A stretch of DNA of 64,000 nucleotides from positions 558,001-622,000 of the forward strand of contig NZ_JAUMIT010000001.1 in NCBI RefSeq assembly GCF_030519655.1, given 5' to 3'. Below the pieces are notes generated by a model. It ran no database searches. It saw only the letters and a program-made list of their open reading frames with translations, and was not told the DNA's origin. The DNA is from Wenyingzhuangia gilva (GTDB taxonomy: Bacteria > Bacteroidota > Bacteroidia > Flavobacteriales > Flavobacteriaceae). The first letter of the stretch is position 1. The number at the start of each line of letters is the position of its first letter. Positions 17,144 to 47,261 of this stretch are shown here, piece after piece. A program made the translations under genes and the position numbers.

Positions 17144-17173
17144 AAAAAAAGGCTTATCGTGAGATAAGCCTTT
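17144..17173 (-). terminator. Tryptophan attenuator terminator
   Basis: Perfect 11-base stem AAAGGCTTATC / GATAAGCCTTT with loop TCAC, followed on the minus strand by seven T. It lies between trpL and trpE. Its loop and stem edge (CTCACG on the minus strand, plus coordinates 17158-17163) complements CGTGAG at 17206-17211 just after trpL, giving a competing antiterminator. Confidence 0.88.
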
Positions 17174-17216: not shown

Positions 17217-17264
17217 TTAATTAAGAGTGTACCACCACCAAGTATTTTTTCTATCTAATTTCAT
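17217..17264 (-). CDS. trpL: trp operon leader peptide
   Basis: A 15-residue ORF, MKLDRKNTWWWYTLN, with three consecutive Trp codons (TGG at plus coordinates 17232-17240) and an adjacent Tyr, too short for standard gene finding. It sits between a strong promoter and the intrinsic terminator in front of trpE. In classical attenuation a ribosome stalled on the Trp codons blocks segment 1, so that segment 2 (CGTGAG) pairs with segment 3 (CTCACG) and the terminator cannot form. When Trp is plentiful the palindrome CTTAATTAATTAAG with CAC/GTG can form the 1:2 hairpin. The ATG is 5-6 bases after the -7 element, so the mRNA may be leaderless. It probably belongs to the trp-leader class known from Bacteroidetes. 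Confidence 0.9.
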   Translation of the reverse strand: MKLDRKNTWWWYTLN

Positions 17265-39603: not shown

Positions 39604-40665
39604 TTAAACTATTTTCTTTAATAAGTTTACGTAAAAAGCTACACCATCATAAACCTCTTGCACATAGATAAATTCATCTGCTGAATGAGAACGTAAAGAA
39701 TCTCCAGGACCTATTTTTACAGATTGACATGTCAATCTACATTGATCAGATAAAGTTGGAGAACCATATGTTTTTTTTCCCAAAGCAACTCCAGACTTTA
39801 CAATATCATGATTAGGATCTATCGATGATGAATTCAATCGTAAAGAACGAGGAATCACCTCACATTCGGTATGTTCAGCAATAATTTCGGCAATTTCTGC
39901 ATTGGTGTATTGGTCGGTAACTCTACAATCTACCACAAAAGTTAATTCTGATGGCACTACGTTGTGTTGATTTCCTGCATTGATTTGAGAAACTGTCATT
40001 TTTACCTCGCCTAAAAAAGGAGATACTTTTGGAAATTTATAGGAATTGATCCACTCTAAATCCTTTAAAGCTTTAAATATTGGATTTTGATGATTTGGAA
40101 TGTGTGCAGCGTGACCAGGAGTTCCTGTTACTTTTCCATCAAAAACTACCAAACCTTTTTCTGCAATGGCCAAATCTAACAAAGTAGGTTCTCCCACAAT
40201 CGCTACATCTATTTTAGGCATGATCTCTTGCATATAAGCAATTCCGTTTTCCCCTGAAATTTCTTCTTCAGCTGTAGCCGCCAATACAAAATTATATTTT
40301 AAATTTTCTTGATTGTAGAAATACACAAAGGCAGACATCAGTCCTACCAAACATCCACCAGCATCATTAGATCCTAAACCATACAACTTGTCTCCTTCTA
40401 TTTTTGCTTCAAAAGGATCTCTTGTATACGCCTGATTTGGTTTAACCGTATCGTGATGAGAGTTTAGTAAAATAGTAGGTTTATGCTCATCAAAATATTT
40501 GTTGGTTGCCCAAACATTATTCAAATCACGTTTTACTTCAACACCTCTATCTATCAACCACTTTGTTAAAATTTCGGCAGTGGGTTCTTCTTCCTTTGAA
40601 AAGGATTGGGTTTGAATTAAAGATTGAAGTAATTCTAAAGCTTCTGATTGTAATTTTTCTATCAT
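39604..40665 (-). CDS. argE: M20 metallopeptidase: N-acylornithine/N-acylcitrulline deacylase
   Basis: M20-family zinc hydrolase, 353 residues, with the metal and catalytic residues in place: SHHDT near 70, GLGSNDAGGCL near 97 and TAEEEISG near 132. In an N-acylated arginine pathway with an ArgF'-type transcarbamylase, its expected job is to remove the acyl group from N-acylcitrulline. Succinyl-diaminopimelate deacylase (DapE) is a close relative, but the position inside the arg cluster supports ArgE. The spacer to argB upstream is a word-repeat hairpin. Confidence 0.9.
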   Translation of the reverse strand: MIEKLQSEALELLQSLIQTQSFSKEEEPTAEILTKWLIDRGVEVKRDLNNVWATNKYFDEHKPTILLNSHHDTVKPNQAYTRDPFEAKIEGDKLYGLGSNDAGGCLVGLMSAFVYFYNQENLKYNFVLAATAEEEISGENGIAYMQEIMPKIDVAIVGEPTLLDLAIAEKGLVVFDGKVTGTPGHAAHIPNHQNPIFKALKDLEWINSYKFPKVSPFLGEVKMTVSQINAGNQHNVVPSELTFVVDCRVTDQYTNAEIAEIIAEHTECEVIPRSLRLNSSSIDPNHDIVKSGVALGKKTYGSPTLSDQCRLTCQSVKIGPGDSLRSHSADEFIYVQEVYDGVAFYVNLLKKIV

Positions 40666-40672
40666 TTTATTT

Positions 40673-40758
40673 TTGGTTGTTGGTTATTAGTTGTTGGTTG
40701 ATAGCTTAATTAACAAATCCACTTTCTCCAACAACAATCAACTAGCAACAAACAACTA
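40673..40758. repeat. Word-repeat inverted spacer, argB-argE junction
   Basis: Left arm (40673-40704) from TTGGTTGTT words, right arm (40728-40758) from CAACAACAA words; the arms are imperfect complements over about 30 bases around an AT-rich loop. It fills the gap between argB and argE. Confidence 0.75.
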
Positions 40759-40759
40759 T

Positions 40760-41539
40760 TTACAACGTCAACGTTGTAAATAATTGTTCTTTGTTTATAA
40801 TCACCGTTGGATTTCCAATAATCACCTCAGAAACTCCTTGCTGCAAAGCATCAAAACAATTTTCCATTTTTGGCAACATTCCATCCGCAATAATTCCATC
40901 TGCTTTTAACTGATTATATTTTTCTGAGTTGATGTCTGTAATCACAGAATTATCATCCTCTACAGAAGTCAATACTCCATTTTTCTCAAACGTATACACC
41001 AAAGAAACATCATATAACGTTGACATTCCCACAGCAATAGTACTCGCAATGGTATCTGCATTGGTATTTAACAATTGTCCTTTTCCATCGTGGGTAATGG
41101 CACAAAAAACAGGTGTCATTCCTCCTTTAATAAACGTAGCTATGTTTTGTGCATTGATGCCATCAACATCTCCAGCAAAACCGTAATCTACGTCTACAAC
41201 TTTTCGTTTGTGAGCTTGAATAGAATTTCCGTCAGCACCAGACAAACCCAGTGCATTACAATTTTTACTCTGTAAAGTAGCTACTATGTTTTTGTTTAAC
41301 AAACCGGCATACACCATGGTTACAATTTCAATCGTCGCTTCATCAGTTACTCTACGACCATTGATCATGGTTGCTTCTATTCCTAAATCAGCTGCCAATT
41401 GCGTAGCACGTTTTCCACCTCCGTGAACCAATATTTTATTCCCTTCTAAAGCTGCAAAATCAGACAAGAAACTTTCCAACGCCTCAGCATTGTTAATTAC
41501 GTTTCCTCCTACTTTTACGATGGTTAGTTTTTGTTTCAT
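40760..41539 (-). CDS. argB: N-acetyl(acyl)glutamate kinase
   Basis: Phosphorylates the side-chain carboxyl of N-acylglutamate, second step of the pathway. Nucleotide-binding VKVGGNVINN at 8-17, substrate-binding HGGGKRATQL at 39-48 and NTNADTIASTIA near 182-193 are the amino-acid kinase blocks. The length of 259 is normal and lacks the N-terminal helix of arginine-inhibited hexameric kinases, so feedback by arginine at this enzyme is not expected. Confidence 0.97.
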   Translation of the reverse strand: MKQKLTIVKVGGNVINNAEALESFLSDFAALEGNKILVHGGGKRATQLAADLGIEATMINGRRVTDEATIEIVTMVYAGLLNKNIVATLQSKNCNALGLSGADGNSIQAHKRKVVDVDYGFAGDVDGINAQNIATFIKGGMTPVFCAITHDGKGQLLNTNADTIASTIAVGMSTLYDVSLVYTFEKNGVLTSVEDDNSVITDINSEKYNQLKADGIIADGMLPKMENCFDALQQGVSEVIIGNPTVIINKEQLFTTLTL

Positions 41540-41549
41540 ATTTCAAAAT

Positions 41550-41573
41550 GGTGTTCGAGCGTAGTCGAGAACA
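41550..41573 (-). repeat. GC-rich REP-like palindromic unit, copy 4
   Basis: Minus-strand core CTCGACTACGCTCGA with flanks GTTC/GAAC and trailing ACC. It forms an inverted doublet with copy 5 (3 bases apart), 10 bases before argB. Confidence 0.85.
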
Positions 41574-41576
41574 AAA

Positions 41577-41600
41577 CATCTCGACTACGCTCGATGACCT
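41577..41600 (+). repeat. GC-rich REP-like palindromic unit, copy 5
   Basis: Core CTCGACTACGCTCGA with flanks CATC/GATG and trailing ACC. It directly abuts the stop codon of argF'. Confidence 0.85.
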
Positions 41601-42557
41601 TTATAAATTCTCTAATATTTTCTTTAACACAATCTGTGCTGAATATGTTCTGTTATTTGCTTGTTTGATGACAATAGAATTTTCAGAATCTATCACCTCA
41701 TCAGCTACAATTACATTTCTACGAACGGGTAAACAGTGCATAAATTTTGCATTGTCTGTCACCGCCATTTTATCTGCTGTAATCATCCAAGAACTATCAG
41801 TATTTGCTACTTTTCCGTAATCTTTATATGATGACCAGTTTTTGGTATAAATAAAATCTGCTCCTTCAAAGGCTTTCTTTTGATCGTATTCAATCCTAGC
41901 ACCTTTGGTTCTTTCAGGACTTAATTCATATCCTTTTGGATGTGTAATAACCACCTCAAAACCATCTTCATGAGCCAACGCCATTTCTGCAAATGAATTC
42001 CCTACAGCATGAGGCAAAGCACGTGGATGTGGTGCCCAAGACAACACTACTTTTAGTTTCTTTTTAGCAGGTTTGTGCTCCTCAATAGTAATAGCATCTG
42101 CCAAAGCTTGTAAAGGATGTCCTACTGATGATTCCATATTTAAAATAGGAACCGTAGCATATTTTACAAAAGCAGACAATACTTCTTCTGCTTCATCTTT
42201 TTCTTTGTCTTCCAATCCTGCAAAAGCACGAATGGCAATGATATCACAATATTGAGAAATCACCTCAGCTGCTTCTTTTACATGCTCAGATTTTCCTTGA
42301 TCCATAATGGTTCCATCTTCAAACTCTAACTGCCATCCTTCTGCACCAAAGTTCATTACAATAGGCTCCATTCCTAAGTTCAATGCTGCTTTTTGAGTAC
42401 TTAAACGCGTACGCAAACTATTGTTAAAAAATAACAAACCAATGGTTTTGTTTTTCCCTAAAGCTTGATCTTTTAATGGATTCTTTTTGATTTCAATCGC
42501 TTCTTTTACCGTGTCTTTAATACTTGGTAAATCGTGAATGGATAAGTAGTGTTTCAT
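41601..42557 (-). CDS. argF': N-acylornithine carbamoyltransferase (ArgF'), probably N-succinylornithine type
   Basis: Transfers carbamoyl to N-acylornithine. The carbamoyl-phosphate loop is SLRTR at 47-51 (not STRTR as in ornithine transcarbamylase), with HPLQ at 147-150, HPRALPHAV at 177-185 and HCLP near 280. Length 318 and these motifs put it with the AOTCase/SOTCase group. At the position that separates Xanthomonas AOTCase (Glu92) from Bacteroides SOTCase (Pro90) it has Ser90 (GKSEH), a small residue that favours the bulkier succinyl substrate. The alignment is from memory. It follows argD with a terminator-like hairpin between. Confidence 0.93.
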   Translation of the reverse strand: MKHYLSIHDLPSIKDTVKEAIEIKKNPLKDQALGKNKTIGLLFFNNSLRTRLSTQKAALNLGMEPIVMNFGAEGWQLEFEDGTIMDQGKSEHVKEAAEVISQYCDIIAIRAFAGLEDKEKDEAEEVLSAFVKYATVPILNMESSVGHPLQALADAITIEEHKPAKKKLKVVLSWAPHPRALPHAVGNSFAEMALAHEDGFEVVITHPKGYELSPERTKGARIEYDQKKAFEGADFIYTKNWSSYKDYGKVANTDSSWMITADKMAVTDNAKFMHCLPVRRNVIVADEVIDSENSIVIKQANNRTYSAQIVLKKILENL

Positions 42558-42610
42558 ATAAATATGGGATTCTTTGAATCGTGAAATTGTTTATTTGCTC
42601 TCTTCTTAAC

Positions 42611-42641
42611 AAAAAAGAGTTCTTGATTACTCAAGAACTCT
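42611..42641 (-). terminator. Terminator-like hairpin between argD and argF'
   Basis: Perfect 11-base stem AGAGTTCTTGA / TCAAGAACTCT, 4-base loop, then TTTTT on the minus strand. It begins 25 bases after the argD stop and ends about 53 bases before the argF' ATG. Confidence 0.75.
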
Positions 42642-42665
42642 GTAAAATTACTAATAATATATATC

Positions 42666-43793
42666 TTATAATAATTCTTTCAGTGCTTTCACAAACACAT
42701 CAATATCTGCTTTTACAATATTTAAAGGTGGAAGAATACGTAACAAATTTTTATTGTTGGCTCCTCCTGTAAAAATCTTATGGTCATAAATTAATTTCTT
42801 GCGTAATTCACCTACTTCGTAGTTAAATTCCAACCCAAGCATCAACCCTTCTCCTTTTACTTGTTTCACTCCAGATAAGTCTTTTACTTGCTCCTTAAAG
42901 TATGCGTTTACCTCAACAACATTTTGCATAATGTTTTCTTGTTTCATCACATCTAATACTGCAATCCCTGCGGCACATGCTAAATGAGAACCTCCAAAAG
43001 TAGTTCCTAACATTCCGTACCAAGGCTCAATATGATTGGCAATTAAAACACCACCAATAGGAAAACCATTCCCCATTCCTTTTGCCATCGGAATGATATC
43101 TGCTTTTACTCCGTGATGTTGGTGCGCAAAGAATTTTCCTGAACGTCCATATCCTGATTGTACTTCATCAAGTATTAAACACACGTTGTTTTCTTGGGTA
43201 ATTTTTCTTACCTCTTGTAAAAATTCTGTGGTTGGCATGTCTAATCCTCCTACTCCTTGAATAGGTTCTACAATCACAGAAGAAACATCTCCTTTAGCAA
43301 TCTCTGCTTTTACCAATTCAATATCATTCAATGGTAAAATAGTTACCGGATTGTGTGCATTGATGGGAGCAATAATTTTTTGATTATCAGTAATAGAAAC
43401 CGCTCCTGAAGTACGTCCGTGGAATCCATTTTTAAAAGCAATCACTCTAGATTTTTGATTGTAGAATGATGCTACTTTAATCGCATTTTCATTTGCTTCT
43501 GCTCCCGAAGAACACAAAAACAAAGCATAATCTTCTCCACACCCAGACAATTCTCCTAATTTATCAGCCAATTCTTGCTGTAAAGGATTTTGAATCGCAT
43601 TTGAATAAAAACCAATTTTACTCAATTGATTTTCTAAAGCTGTTTTATAATATGGATGCGTGTGACCAATAGAAATCACTCCGTGACCTCCATATAAGTC
43701 TAAATATTTATCTCCTTTATCGTCCCAAACATAAGCTCCTTCTGCTTTTACAGGAGTTACGTTGTACAATGGGTATACGTCAAATAATTTCAT
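42666..43793 (-). CDS. argD: N-acylornithine aminotransferase
   Basis: PLP-dependent class III aminotransferase making N-acylornithine from the semialdehyde. The PLP lysine is in IPMAKGMGNGFPIGG, with CSSGAEANENAIK and FHGRTSGA blocks before it and LDEVQSGYGRSGK holding the PLP Asp. The length of 375 is normal. It belongs to the arg cluster between argC and argF'. Specificity for acetyl or succinyl forms cannot be read by eye. Confidence 0.95.
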   Translation of the reverse strand: MKLFDVYPLYNVTPVKAEGAYVWDDKGDKYLDLYGGHGVISIGHTHPYYKTALENQLSKIGFYSNAIQNPLQQELADKLGELSGCGEDYALFLCSSGAEANENAIKVASFYNQKSRVIAFKNGFHGRTSGAVSITDNQKIIAPINAHNPVTILPLNDIELVKAEIAKGDVSSVIVEPIQGVGGLDMPTTEFLQEVRKITQENNVCLILDEVQSGYGRSGKFFAHQHHGVKADIIPMAKGMGNGFPIGGVLIANHIEPWYGMLGTTFGGSHLACAAGIAVLDVMKQENIMQNVVEVNAYFKEQVKDLSGVKQVKGEGLMLGLEFNYEVGELRKKLIYDHKIFTGGANNKNLLRILPPLNIVKADIDVFVKALKELL

Positions 43794-43800
43794 TTTGATT

Positions 43801-43866
43801 TAGTATTAAGTACGGAGTACAGAGTACAGAGTATTCTTACTACTTTGTACTCTGTACTTTGTACTA
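43801..43866. repeat. Word-repeat inverted spacer, argC-argD junction
   Basis: Left arm (43801-43833) is GGAGTACAGAGTACAGAGTA-type words; right arm (43839-43866) is TTTGTACTCTGTACTTTGTACTA. The GAGTACAGAGTA / TACTCTGTACTT pairing makes a strong hairpin that fills the gap between argC and argD. Confidence 0.8.
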
Positions 43867-43867
43867 T

Positions 43868-44845
43868 TTAGAATGCACTTCCTTTTAAATTTAATCCTAA
43901 AGTTTCTTCAAAACCAAACATCAAATTCATATTCTGAATGGCTTGTCCTGAAGCTCCTTTTAATAAATTATCAATCGCAGAGTAAATTAAAATTTGATCT
44001 CCGTGTTTGATTAAGGAAATGGCACATTTGTTTGTATTCACAACTTGTTTCATATTTACAGGTGCATCCGTAATGTGAACAAAAGGTGCATCTGCATAAA
44101 ACCGAGTAAAAATTTCTTTAGCTTCTTCTAAAGTTCCATCAAACTTGGTATAAACCGAAGCAAAAATTCCACGACTAAAGTTTCCTCTGTTTGGAATAAA
44201 GAACAATTCTCCTGTTTTACTTTCTTGTAAACTGTCTAAAGTTTCTCCTATTTCCCCTAAATGTTGATGCGTAAAAGGTTTATAAACTGAAAAGTTGTTA
44301 TCTCTCCAAGGAAAATGAGAAGTTTCCGTTGGTGATACTCCAGCCCCTGTTGCTCCTGTAGTGGCATTGATATGGATATCGTTTCCTAATTTTTTAGCTT
44401 TTGCTAAAGGCAATAAAGCAAACTGAATACAAGTAGCAAAACAACCAGGATTGGCAATATAATTTGCCGTTTTGATTTCTTCTCTACTCACTTCAGGCAA
44501 TCCATATACAAACTTTTTTCCTTCAAAAACCATGTCGGCATTCAAACGGAAATCGTTACTTAAATCAATAATTTTAGTAGTGTCTGAAAAAATATTTTTT
44601 TGTAAAAATGCCGTTGAATTTCCGTGACCTAAACACAAAAACAATACGTCTACTTTTGGATTGATAGTATCTGTAAATTCTTGTTCAGTATCTCCCAACA
44701 AGTCAACATGTACTTTGTACAATTTATTTCCAGCATTAGAAGTACTGTACACAAAATCTAAAGTCAACTCAGGATGATTCATAATCAATCTGATTAACTC
44801 ACCTGCAGTATATCCTGCTCCTCCTACTATTCCTGCTTTTATCAT
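43868..44845 (-). CDS. argC: N-acyl-gamma-glutamyl-phosphate reductase
   Basis: NADPH-dependent reduction of N-acylglutamyl phosphate to the semialdehyde. Dinucleotide loop GGAGYTAGEL at 8-17 and the catalytic Cys in NPGCFATC near 130 are clear. I use the ATG at MIKAGIVGGAGY, giving 325 residues; the longer open frame (44890) reads IERSRD through a REP-like palindrome and is an artefact. It lies between argG and argD. Confidence 0.96.
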   Translation of the reverse strand: MIKAGIVGGAGYTAGELIRLIMNHPELTLDFVYSTSNAGNKLYKVHVDLLGDTEQEFTDTINPKVDVLFLCLGHGNSTAFLQKNIFSDTTKIIDLSNDFRLNADMVFEGKKFVYGLPEVSREEIKTANYIANPGCFATCIQFALLPLAKAKKLGNDIHINATTGATGAGVSPTETSHFPWRDNNFSVYKPFTHQHLGEIGETLDSLQESKTGELFFIPNRGNFSRGIFASVYTKFDGTLEEAKEIFTRFYADAPFVHITDAPVNMKQVVNTNKCAISLIKHGDQILIYSAIDNLLKGASGQAIQNMNLMFGFEETLGLNLKGSAF

Positions 44846-44868
44846 TTTTTTAGTTTTTAAAGTTATAT

Positions 44869-44892
44869 AATCTCGACTACGCTCGATCACCT
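44869..44892 (+). repeat. GC-rich REP-like palindromic unit, copy 6
   Basis: Core CTCGACTACGCTCGA with flanks ATC/GAT and trailing ACC, in the argG-argC spacer, which also carries AGTTTTTAAAGTT and AACAACTTTTAAAC words facing each other. Confidence 0.8.
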
Positions 44893-44968
44893 AACAACTT
44901 TTAAACGTTCTTGTTTCTAGTTAAATCGATTAAACAAATAAACGATTCACCTTATAAACAACTTTTAG

Positions 44969-46165
44969 TTATGCCTCTAACAAATCTTTATTTACGTGGT
45001 AAAAGATTTTGTTTTGCATACCATATATTTTTATGAATCCTTTGGCATCTTGACTAGACCATGCGTTGTTTTCTTCACCGTAATCAGCAAATCCTGAAGC
45101 CATTAAATCGTATTTAGAATCAATTCCTGTCACAATGAAGTGATAAGGTCTTAATGTTACATACACCTCTCCAGATACTGTTTTTTGAGAATCTTCTAAA
45201 AACTTCTCAATGTTACGCATTAAAGGCTCTAAATACTGCCCATCATGAAACAACGTTCCATAAGTAGTTCCCAATCCTTCTTTGGTAATTTGTTGTGCTT
45301 TAGACAAAGTATGTTTTTCTAATAAGTGATGAGCTTTGATAATTACTGTTGCTGCAGCAGCTTCAAAACCAACACGTCCTTTAATTCCAACAATGGTATC
45401 TCCTACGTGGATGTCTCTACCAATGGCAAAAGCAGAAGCTATTTCTTCTAACTTTAAAATATTATTTACTGGAGTGTCTTTTACTCCGTTAAAAGCAACG
45501 AATTGTCCTTTTTCAAAAGTCAAAGTCACTTGCTCTTCATCTTCTCTTTTTAATTGACTTGGATATGCTTCGCTTGGCAATGCTTTTTGAGATTTTAAAG
45601 TCTCTACCCCACCAACTGAGGTTCCCCAAATACCTTTGTTTACAGAATATTTAGATTTTTCCCAGTTCATATCTACTCCATGAGATTTTAAATAATCAAT
45701 CTCAGTTTGACGAGATAATTTTAAATCACGAATTGGCGTAATAATTTCTATTTCTGGTGCAATAGTTTGGAAAATCATATCAAAACGAACTTGGTCATTT
45801 CCTGCTCCGGTAGAACCATGTGCAATGTATTTTGCTCCAACAGATTTTGCATACTTTACTACTTCTATAGACTGGAATACACGCTCTGCAGAAACAGATA
45901 ATGGATAAGTATTATTTTTTAATACGTTTCCATACACCATGTACTTAATAGCTTTATCGTAGTATTTTTCTAAAATATCTTTGTTTTCATGAGAAGTTAC
46001 GCCCATTTCGTAAGCTTTTTTCTCAACTGCAGCCAATTCTTCTTTGGTAAAACCACCTGTGTTTACCAAAACTGAATGTACTTCTAGCTTTAATTCGTTG
46101 ATTAAATATTTTACACAATACGAAGTATCTAAACCTCCACTATATGCCAATACTACTTTATCCAT
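44969..46165 (-). CDS. argG: Argininosuccinate synthase
   Basis: Joins citrulline and aspartate using ATP. The PP-loop AYSGGLDTSYCVKYL lies at 8-22 and the citrulline/aspartate region AHGSTGAGNDQVRF near 115-128. The length of 398 is normal. The gene follows the GNAT gene, separated by 269 bases that hold a large imperfect inverted repeat and no promoter match I could see; it is first in the uninterrupted core of the cluster. Confidence 0.97.
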   Translation of the reverse strand: MDKVVLAYSGGLDTSYCVKYLINELKLEVHSVLVNTGGFTKEELAAVEKKAYEMGVTSHENKDILEKYYDKAIKYMVYGNVLKNNTYPLSVSAERVFQSIEVVKYAKSVGAKYIAHGSTGAGNDQVRFDMIFQTIAPEIEIITPIRDLKLSRQTEIDYLKSHGVDMNWEKSKYSVNKGIWGTSVGGVETLKSQKALPSEAYPSQLKREDEEQVTLTFEKGQFVAFNGVKDTPVNNILKLEEIASAFAIGRDIHVGDTIVGIKGRVGFEAAAATVIIKAHHLLEKHTLSKAQQITKEGLGTTYGTLFHDGQYLEPLMRNIEKFLEDSQKTVSGEVYVTLRPYHFIVTGIDSKYDLMASGFADYGEENNAWSSQDAKGFIKIYGMQNKIFYHVNKDLLEA

Positions 46166-46434: not shown

Positions 46435-47049
46435 TTAGTCTTTTTTATGAAAGAATTTATCCTTCAATTTAGCCAACTTTGCTTTAAATTCCCAACTAGG
46501 TTCTTTGGCCGCTTTTTTTCGCTCCACCTCTTTGGGGTCATGTAACATACCTGTACACAAACACATTTTTCGTTCGTTGCGTTCTAAGATATCAAAGTTT
46601 TTACAAGACTTACATCCATTCCAAAAAGCTTCATCTCTAGTAAGTTCTGAGAAAGTAACAGGCTTATACCCTAACTCATAATTTATTTTCATTACAGCCA
46701 AACCGGTTGTAATTCCAAAAATTTTAGCATCAGGATACTTTTCTTTAGAGTGATTAAAGATTTTTGTTTTGATTTGTTTTGCCAATCCTTGATTTCTGTA
46801 ATCAGGATGTACAATTAAACCAGAATGCACTACATAAGATTTATTTTCCCAAGTTTCTATATAACAGAAACCTGCAAACTTTACGCCATCTAAGGCAATC
46901 ACTGCATCTCCACTTTCTAATTTTTTTTTGATATACTCCGGTGTTCTTTTAGCAATACCTGTTCCTCTTACTCTTGCAGAAGTTTCAATGGTATCGCAGA
47001 TGACATCGGCGTATTTAAAGTGTGATTTGTTAGCAGTTACAATTTTCAT
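46435..47049 (-). CDS. GNAT acyltransferase, candidate first enzyme of arginine synthesis
   Basis: 204 residues. The GNAT fold is shown by HPDYRNQGLAKQI (81-93), the acyl-CoA pyrophosphate loop, preceded by VHSGLIV and followed by GITTGLAVMKINYELGY. An unusual C-terminal extension has Cys146, Cys149, Cys163 and Cys165 (CKSC ... CLC), a likely metal site. It is the first gene of the arg cluster, directly behind an Arg-rich leader ORF, and the cluster otherwise lacks an enzyme for N-acylation of glutamate. The inference is therefore N-acetyl- or N-succinylglutamate synthase, not shown by sequence. No ArgJ or classical ArgA is in the window. Confidence 0.85.
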   Translation of the reverse strand: MKIVTANKSHFKYADVICDTIETSARVRGTGIAKRTPEYIKKKLESGDAVIALDGVKFAGFCYIETWENKSYVVHSGLIVHPDYRNQGLAKQIKTKIFNHSKEKYPDAKIFGITTGLAVMKINYELGYKPVTFSELTRDEAFWNGCKSCKNFDILERNERKMCLCTGMLHDPKEVERKKAAKEPSWEFKAKLAKLKDKFFHKKD

Positions 47050-47070
47050 TGTTGATGATATATTTTATAA

Positions 47071-47166
47071 GTTGTTTTCATGTTTTCTGATGTTGTCTAT
47101 AATTGTGAATAGCACTTTTTAAAGTTACTATTCCCTACATCGTCGTCTACGAAAACATACAACAAC
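47071..47166 (-). promoter_or_regulatory. Candidate RNA switch structure around the arginine leader
   Basis: Minus-strand segment GTTGTTGTATGTTTTC (plus 47151-47166, just before the Arg codons) can pair with GAAAACATGAAAACAAC (plus 47071-47087, just before the GNAT gene) over 8 + 6 base pairs. Between them GAATAGTAACTTTAAAAAGTGCTATTC (47107-47133) would be a local hairpin overlapping the leader stop codon (written as arms GAATAG / CTATTC). A ribosome stalled at the Arg codons would mask the first segment. Confidence 0.5.
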
Positions 47167-47229
47167 AGTTTTATAGATATACATATCTACAAAGTAAGAA
47201 GAAAAAAATAATTCACCTGCTAACTGCAT
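47128..47229 (-). CDS. Putative arginine leader peptide upstream of the arg operon
   Basis: A 33-codon ORF ending MYIYKTVVVCFRRRRCRE, followed by TAG. Five Arg codons (CGT, AGA, CGA, CGA, then AGG after one Cys) lie within six positions at the end. It lies 79 bases upstream of the GNAT start, with a -7 match TACTTTTG about 25 bases before the first ATG; a second in-frame ATG (47184) would give the 18-residue form quoted. Arg runs like this are expected only by rare chance, and the first arg gene is immediately downstream. There is no terminator with T-run in the gap, so control would be by RNA pairing that affects translation or processing, or by Rho. Not seen as an annotated class to my knowledge. 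Confidence 0.7.
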   Translation of the reverse strand: MQLAGELFFSSYFVDMYIYKTVVVCFRRRRCRE

Positions 47230-47253: not shown

Positions 47254-47261
47254 CAAAAGTA
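47254..47261 (-). promoter_or_regulatory. Promoter -7 element before the arginine leader
   Basis: TACTTTTG on the minus strand, a full -7 match; the predicted start lies about 20 bases before the first leader ATG. The nearest TTTG upstream is only 12 bases away, so the -33 is unclear. Confidence 0.4.

Follow-up and report, generated by a model that had tools for sequence, protein, structure and literature searches.

The window, a 64,000 bp stretch of the Wenyingzhuangia gilva genome, encodes on its minus strand a cluster of arginine biosynthesis genes headed by a GNAT-family acetyltransferase (Table 1). The product of this first gene matched the Pfam families Acetyltransf_7 and Acetyltransf_1 above the cut-off, gave no NCBIfam match at 1e-10 and shared 99.5-100% identity with the GNAT of W. 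marina. It is followed on the same strand by ArgG, ArgC, an ArgD-like protein, an N-acetyl/succinyl-ornithine carbamoyltransferase-like protein, ArgB and an ArgE/DapE-like protein; argG, argC, argB and PRK04523 were above the NCBIfam cut-off, and argD and DapE-ArgE were best matches that fell below it. Upstream of the GNAT gene is an unannotated ORF with the putative amino acid sequence MQLAGELFFSSYFVDMYIYKTVVVCFRRRRCRE. A preliminary description of this DNA had given its ending as CFRRRRCRE with five Arg codons among the last eight, which a reading of the ORF confirmed (TTT CGT AGA CGA CGA TGT AGG GAA); the distance to the first gene of the cluster, put there at 79 bases, was measured as 78 nt. 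It had also stated that the trp operon of the same window is under a leader peptide, and a trp leader, a hairpin and a T7 tract are indeed present before the TrpE-like gene.

Table 1. Positions of the leader ORF, its RNA pairings and the associated genes in the window.
Feature	Position (bp)	Strand	Description
Arg-rich leader ORF	47128..47229	-	33 codons, ATG to TAG, ending CFRRRRCRE
Arg run of the leader	47134..47151	-	CGT AGA CGA CGA TGT AGG
Candidate promoter -7 box	47254..47261	-	TACTTTTG; fits TAnnTTTG, 24 nt 5′ of the leader ATG
H0	47174..47189	-	TAGATA-TGTA-TATCTA, hairpin of six pairs within the leader ORF
Stop hairpin	47107..47133	-	GAATAG..CTATTC, at the H2 position; starts in the last sense codon, stop codon in the 5′ arm
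P0, 5′ strand	47159..47164	-	TGTTGT, leader codons directly before the Arg run; partner 47056..47050
P0, 3′ strand	47050..47056	-	last base adjoins the GNAT start codon
Alternative long-range strand	47071..47087	-	GAAAACAT..AACAAC, against 47166..47151 (GTTGTT..ATGTTTTC)
GNAT-family acetyltransferase	46435..47049	-	204 aa, first gene of the cluster
arg cluster after GNAT	39604..46165	-	from the NCBIfam scan
trp leader	17264..17217	-	MKLDRKNTWWWYTLN, then stop; contains WWW; before the TrpE-like gene
trp leader hairpin and T7	17170..17144	-	U7 terminator, from the terminator scan

Among the 1303 ORFs of 10-70 codons that the window has on its two strands, only the leader ORF itself had at least five Arg codons in its last eight. 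CGA and AGG made up 23 of the 243 Arg codons in 18 genes of the window versus three of the five in the leader (binomial P 0.007). The candidate promoter box upstream of the ORF fits TAnnTTTG, the Bacteroidota -7 consensus given in the available text of PMC9723704. Among 100 distinct Flavobacteriaceae leaders, 30 had this motif 2-22 nt upstream of an in-frame start, where 2.8 were expected by shuffling, and its commonest spacing was 7 nt; the 24 nt spacing in the window is outside the counted range.

The regions upstream of GNAT genes were compared across 30 relatives, drawn from a set in which six genomes were of the same genus, a set of genome_contigs loci (best 80 of 441), a class draw of 247 genomes with a GNAT match in 88, and a phylum draw of 296 genomes with GNAT in 124. 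A leader was defined as an ORF of at most 70 codons, with its stop at -180 to -40 relative to GNAT and at least three Arg among its last 12 codons. From the 88 class genomes 80 loci were compared, as the own genome and G040 were assigned to the relatives instead, and G083 and five genomes with only weak GNAT matches also lay outside the set. These 80 were split into 74 loci without and six with argR before GNAT, the weak ArgR matches of G223 (27.3 bits with neighbours, E 1.1e-5) and G234 (below the cut-off) being counted as without ArgR. The phylum draw covered 83 new loci; the matching new genomes G322, G333, G369, G445, G466, G478, G535 and G559 were left out. The groups overlap, in that L031-L034 and L040 are of species already among L001-L030. 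In G322, G445 and G478, all of family f93, the GNAT match lay within frames 588-630 residues long, as though the domain were joined to another protein.

An Arg-rich leader was present in 27 of 33 relatives (Markov shuffles 3.5%; reverse strand 0/33), in 75 of the 80 loci that were the best of 441 (4.6%; 5/80) and in 45 of the 74 Bacteroidia loci without argR at this place (8.8%; 8/74). When at least four Arg were demanded, these counts were 21/33, 65/80 and 23/74, and the shuffles yielded 0.3%, 0.4% and 1.6%. Among new genomes the leader was found in 9 of 13 from the class (shuffles 8.5%; reverse strand 2/13), 8 of 19 from the family (2.6%; 0/19) and 34 of the 51 loci from elsewhere in the phylum (16%; 7/51); leaders with at least four Arg numbered 6/13, 7/19 and 27/51 respectively, and across all groups 0-3.6% of shuffles reached that level. 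No qualifying ORF was found in 29 of the 74 class loci, 17 of the 51 outside the class and 11 of the 19 further family loci, most of the latter belonging to one genus, g51. The comparison with relatives had been proposed in the preliminary description, which took the lack of an Arg-rich ORF in close relatives as evidence against a leader; all six Wenyingzhuangia sequences and the neighbouring genus Ochrovirga have one of 32-33 codons at the same place.

The leaders end in various ways, with RRRP, RRPLRA or RRTFVRA in Flavobacteriaceae, YFFRV- or RSRI-type endings elsewhere in the class and RRIPRRR in family f94 outside the class. The f94 leaders (L287-L300, L332) are short, such as MQKSLAHRIDRRSVRRIPRRR, and a repeated long-range complement, AGAATTGA/TCAATTCT (AGGATC/GATCCT in L291), was noticed there by eye. 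In genus g51 (L162, L165, L256, L259, L262 and L263) the Arg-rich leader is replaced by a conserved distal ORF approximately 240 nt before GNAT (MNKISLH..SLSRTN..TSPEVRML..) that has just two or three Arg codons. Additionally, tandem Arg-rich ORFs were observed in 43 of 122 Flavobacteriaceae loci, at approximately -340 to -200 and -180 to -40 (for example L011, L053, L067, L068, L089, L264 and L286); 57 loci had one in the near stretch only, eight in the far stretch only and 14 in neither. In L075, L086 and L251, among others, the far ORF was clearly just the end of the gene upstream.

A search for the arginine repressor ArgR (PF01316) gave no match in 60 relatives, the own genome included, and was positive in 9 of 14 control genomes, one of which was that of Bacteroides ihuae. 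PF01316 was matched in 14 of the 247 class genomes, above the cut-off in 11. In the six class genomes with both ArgR and GNAT (G090, G131, G165, G197, G228 and G257) the ArgR domain is located approximately 300-360 nt before GNAT on the same strand, a distance that would have room for little beyond the rest of argR, and none of these six loci, which constitute the ArgR/leader contrast at GNAT, had a leader. In the phylum draw ArgR was present in 110 genomes and occurred together with GNAT in four (Fisher's P < 1e-27, not corrected for phylogeny): G090, G131, G223, where the 27.3 bits were reached only with neighbours, and G327, whose five like-scoring matches in 127-residue frames look more like a mobile element.

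Alignment of the leaders from three close pairs (window and W. marina, W. marina and L003, W. heitensis and W. aestuarii) showed that nine of 11 substitutions were at the third codon position. In the more distant comparisons with W. sp. 2_MG-2023, the leader peptide had diverged freely outside the Arg run, with 13 nonsynonymous codons. Four consecutive Arg codons were kept in all six Wenyingzhuangia sequences and the fifth was Ser in W. sp. 2_MG-2023. The codons used for Arg were tallied by clade in leaders with at least four Arg. Those of the genus were CGA (14), AGG (10), CGT (6) and AGA (3), those of other Flavobacteriaceae were CGC (182) and CGT (144), the f94 leaders used CGG in 75 of 97 cases, and CGN and AGR were mixed in the other groups. 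Arg is kept between clades while its codons swap between CGN and AGR. Both synonymous changes and a conserved Arg run with variable flanks had been named in the preliminary description as signs to look for, and on the pattern of its substitutions the leader ORF behaves as coding sequence.

In other Flavobacteriaceae the Arg run is continuous with a small hairpin, H1, which is formed around the last Arg codons and the stop (CGCCC-GUAA-GGGUG, with the stop codon in the loop, CGCAC-GUUU-GUGCG or GCCC-CUUGC-GGGC) and is followed by a second hairpin, H2 (GGAAAU-A-GG-UGAGU-CC-AUUUCC and variants). A covariance model built from 28 sequences of the A-bulge type, with the structure named by hand, matched 83 of 98 loci (110 minus 12 duplicates or near duplicates). 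In these matches 96.9% of pair cells formed and nine of 13 pairs were changed on both sides, a level reached by 0/500 shuffles in an alignment that was fitted to the structure. Searching whole genomes with the model revealed one match each in 19 Flavobacteriaceae genomes, seven of which had been used in building it, always 41-96 nt before GNAT; elsewhere there was a weak match (E 0.05) in G044, and none of seven Wenyingzhuangia genomes (0/6 of those bearing GNAT) was matched. When 62 elements in a mixed MAFFT alignment were folded jointly with RNAalifold, almost no structure emerged, because the H1 and H2 types differ by bulges. Searches against Rfam 15 gave no family match in the window and, in eight loci at E up to 0.5, a sub-threshold sok in L027 as the sole match.

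The loop of H2 is conserved as UGNGU in other Flavobacteriaceae and as UNNGY in other Bacteroidia. The UNNGY pattern was first noticed by eye and afterwards tested on new genomes. The hairpin was found in 13 of the 75 loci where it was noticed (shuffles 0.45 on average and 4 at most; 2 on the reverse strand; 2/74 far upstream), in 3 of 13 new class genomes (shuffle mean 0.03, maximum 1) and, beyond the class, in none of 51 loci. By eye, the H2 loop (GGUGAGU) could plausibly pair with Arg codons (ACUCGCC) in some loci; this pairing was not counted, as leaders with the loop variant UGUGU or UGCGU did not seem to carry the matching changes. Two further readings of the loop, as a mimic of a Shine-Dalgarno sequence (AGGUGA) and as an arginine site resembling that of tRNA or TAR, were dropped, since its third base varies and Lutibacter is without the bulge.

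The structure of the Wenyingzhuangia leader was analysed in a plain MAFFT alignment of six species, in which three helices, H0, the stop hairpin and P0, were tested. Three of the six H0 pairs were changed on both sides among the six species, with one mismatch in one species. The outer five pairs of the stop hairpin form in all six, one varying between A-U and G-U only, and its inner part differs between the two sub-clades. Two of the six pairs of P0, a helix chosen post hoc and by eye from these six related species, were changed on both sides. Taken together, 5/17 pairs were changed on both sides and 98.0% of cells pair, which 0/500 shuffles reached; a control slid by +3 likewise had three pairs changed on both sides. 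P0 is 9-10 bp long in three species (shuffle P 0.01-0.09) and 8 bp in L003 (0.07). In the window its longest helix is 6 bp, which 42% of shuffles reached, and the W. marina-like L002 also has 6 bp (P 0.35); the helix was looked for and not found in Ochrovirga L035. An alternative long-range pairing (47071..47087 with 47166..47151), seen in the minimum-energy fold of L001, excludes P0; it is present in the window's sub-clade of three and broken in the other three species. The preliminary description had placed alternative RNA pairings next to the Arg codons, and this held in so far as covarying helices exist; no textbook terminator/antiterminator pair was found.

Folding with the ribosome footprint blocked predicted, in five of seven genus loci, that a ribosome placed on the first Arg codon of the run leaves the GNAT start region more accessible than one placed at the stop. 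For the window locus the predicted start accessibility was 0.48 in all three states, and in Ochrovirga L035 the start region was not opened by the stalled ribosome. A test of the duplex energy of long-range pairing, which is noisy, gave a mean z of -1.62 for the genus, with 2/7 loci at P no greater than 0.05. A covarying helix thus joins the codons before the Arg run to the bases at the GNAT start in Wenyingzhuangia, which suggests translational control, weakly so for the window's own sequence.

A scan for intrinsic terminators between leader and GNAT found none in seven genus loci or 19 f94-like loci, two in 60 other loci and, in other Flavobacteriaceae, four in 87 where 1.2 were expected. 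The same scan detected both controls, the window's trp leader and the terminator of the upstream gene. An intrinsic terminator was thus rejected as the output, and the textbook arrangement is excluded as a rule because terminators were almost absent although the controls were detected. Outside the genus, sequestration of the start codon was rejected as a general output, both the folding and the duplex tests being negative. Predicted start accessibility changed in seven of 86 loci (four up, three down), none of 19, and six of 59 (three up, three down). Long-range duplexes were not in excess in other Flavobacteriaceae (86 loci, mean z 0.22); the other group had a mean z of -0.13 and the f94-like loci, in the same noisy test, -0.72.

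These results point to an RNA leader that would sense arginine through a short peptide gene. It is likely, from the comparison of leaders, that the arg operon has an arginine attenuator and that this ORF is its leader-peptide gene, and the broader proposition that an arginine leader peptide acts in cis on this operon is very likely. The ORF probably acts as an arginine gauge. Translation of the leader, stalling on it and the direction of the response are putative. Ribosomes would translate the short ORF; a shortage of charged tRNA-Arg would make them stall on the Arg run at its end, and with an ample supply they would run on to the leader stop. In Wenyingzhuangia, a stalled ribosome would cover the codons before the Arg run that otherwise pair, as P0, with bases at the GNAT start; stalling would free this start and turn the operon on, and run-through would allow P0 to re-form and turn the operon down. 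The output in this genus would then be a translational attenuator driven by starvation, although P0 in that role is a tentative proposal from the modelled helix, a little short of an even chance. Elsewhere in the Flavobacteriaceae and Bacteroidia this sensor may be coupled to different hairpins, H1 and the H2 whose loop is conserved, and the output there could depend on Rho or on a factor that reads H2. The sensor part of this mechanism is well supported by comparison; the output part, which we infer, would be lineage-specific.

The same leader peptide might instead have a transcriptional output that needs no U-tract, a reading that is possible and on the whole doubtful. Run-through would expose the RNA after the stop to Rho, stalling would hide that RNA or form a protecting structure, and H2 would be part of the switch. 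In most Flavobacteriaceae loci the leader stop and GNAT are separated by approximately 80-100 nt of untranslated RNA, which would suit this, as would the small number of intrinsic terminators found there, but a purely transcriptional output needs no helix next to the GNAT start, and in Wenyingzhuangia such a helix covaries.

Stalling could also have another cause. In nascent-peptide arrest, of which TnaC, SpeFL and the fungal arginine attenuator peptide are examples, an Arg-rich and often Pro-ending tail would pause the ribosome on binding arginine or a related metabolite, and the signal would be high arginine. Many Flavobacteriaceae leaders do end in RRRP-stop, and Pro ranks second among the residues of their last 12 codons (share 0.17). 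In the genus, however, the second commonest residue is Val, the residues around Arg vary freely (RRRP, RRPLRA, RRTFVRA, CRE, RRIPRRR, YFFRV) and the RP-stop ending would also be dictated by H1 (CGCCC-GUAA-GGGUG). Arrest by the nascent chain is consequently unlikely, and we rather favour stalling on Arg codons through a lack of charged tRNA. That the ORF is untranslated and owes its Arg codons to a GC-rich regulatory H1 or to an arginine- or protein-binding RNA is very improbable: it would fit the strong H1/H2 covariation (in an alignment fitted to the structure) and the conserved H2 loops, but the window's genus keeps the Arg run without R1-type H1/H2, substitutions fall at third positions, CGN and AGR codons swap, the TAnnTTTG box has a fixed spacing from the leader ATG, and outside the class Arg ORFs persist whereas the UNNGY hairpin was not found.

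The arginine leader may be ancient. A phylum-wide attenuator at the GNAT-led arg operon, situated where argR stands in other lineages and free of intrinsic terminators, is conceivable, and we put it forward with some reserve; it would act by start-codon sequestration of the P0 type in Wenyingzhuangia and through a UNNGY pentaloop hairpin, read by a factor or by the ribosome, in Bacteroidia. If true, such a leader would explain how Flavobacteria without ArgR adjust arginine synthesis. It would also be an attenuator that does without the usual terminator, and this in a phylum where Shine-Dalgarno initiation is largely lacking. The available text of PMC9723704 is consistent with the scarcity of Shine-Dalgarno initiation in the phylum.

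Leader-peptide attenuation is textbook for several amino acids, and we know of no bacterial arginine biosynthesis operon that is controlled in this way. A literature search, which covered main texts and few subscription papers, likewise revealed no such operon described under leader-peptide attenuation and no arginine leader of a Bacteroidota arg operon; a prior mention is possible. The accessible portions of PMC4833913, PMC7366714 and PMC4997734 describe no arginine leader of an arg operon.

Like the trp, his, leu and thr attenuators, the leader is a short ORF that heads a biosynthetic operon and has a tail crowded with codons for the end product, and this run stands directly before the operon. 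It differs in that the product is arginine and in the lack of an intrinsic terminator, with none in the seven genus loci and few elsewhere. The trp type has mutually exclusive helices, one of which the stalled ribosome blocks; for the arg leader, the analysis showed covarying helices, exclusive alternatives in the window's sub-clade and no general change of state on folding. In translational attenuators of the erm type a stalled leader ribosome frees the start of the next gene and the signal is an antibiotic. P0 is predicted to have the required geometry in Wenyingzhuangia, the one genus in which it was seen, and the signal here would be a lack of charged tRNA-Arg. In Staphylococcus aureus, the leader peptide rbfL reports arginine supply through Arg codons: it has two rare ones, and low arginine leads to a blocked ribosome site of a biofilm regulator, according to the part of PMC13009471 available. 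As described there, rbfL represses that regulator and not an arginine biosynthesis operon. Strong clues of leader-peptide attenuation before amino acid biosynthesis operons of Flavobacterium psychrophilum (PMC9723704) concern the same family, and arginine is not named in the text available. The ArgR repressor, lastly, would also control the arg operon and its gene occupies the leader's place in six class genomes; it is a DNA-binding protein, absent from all 60 relatives, and if our reading is correct a protein repressor and a leader peptide swap places at one operon.
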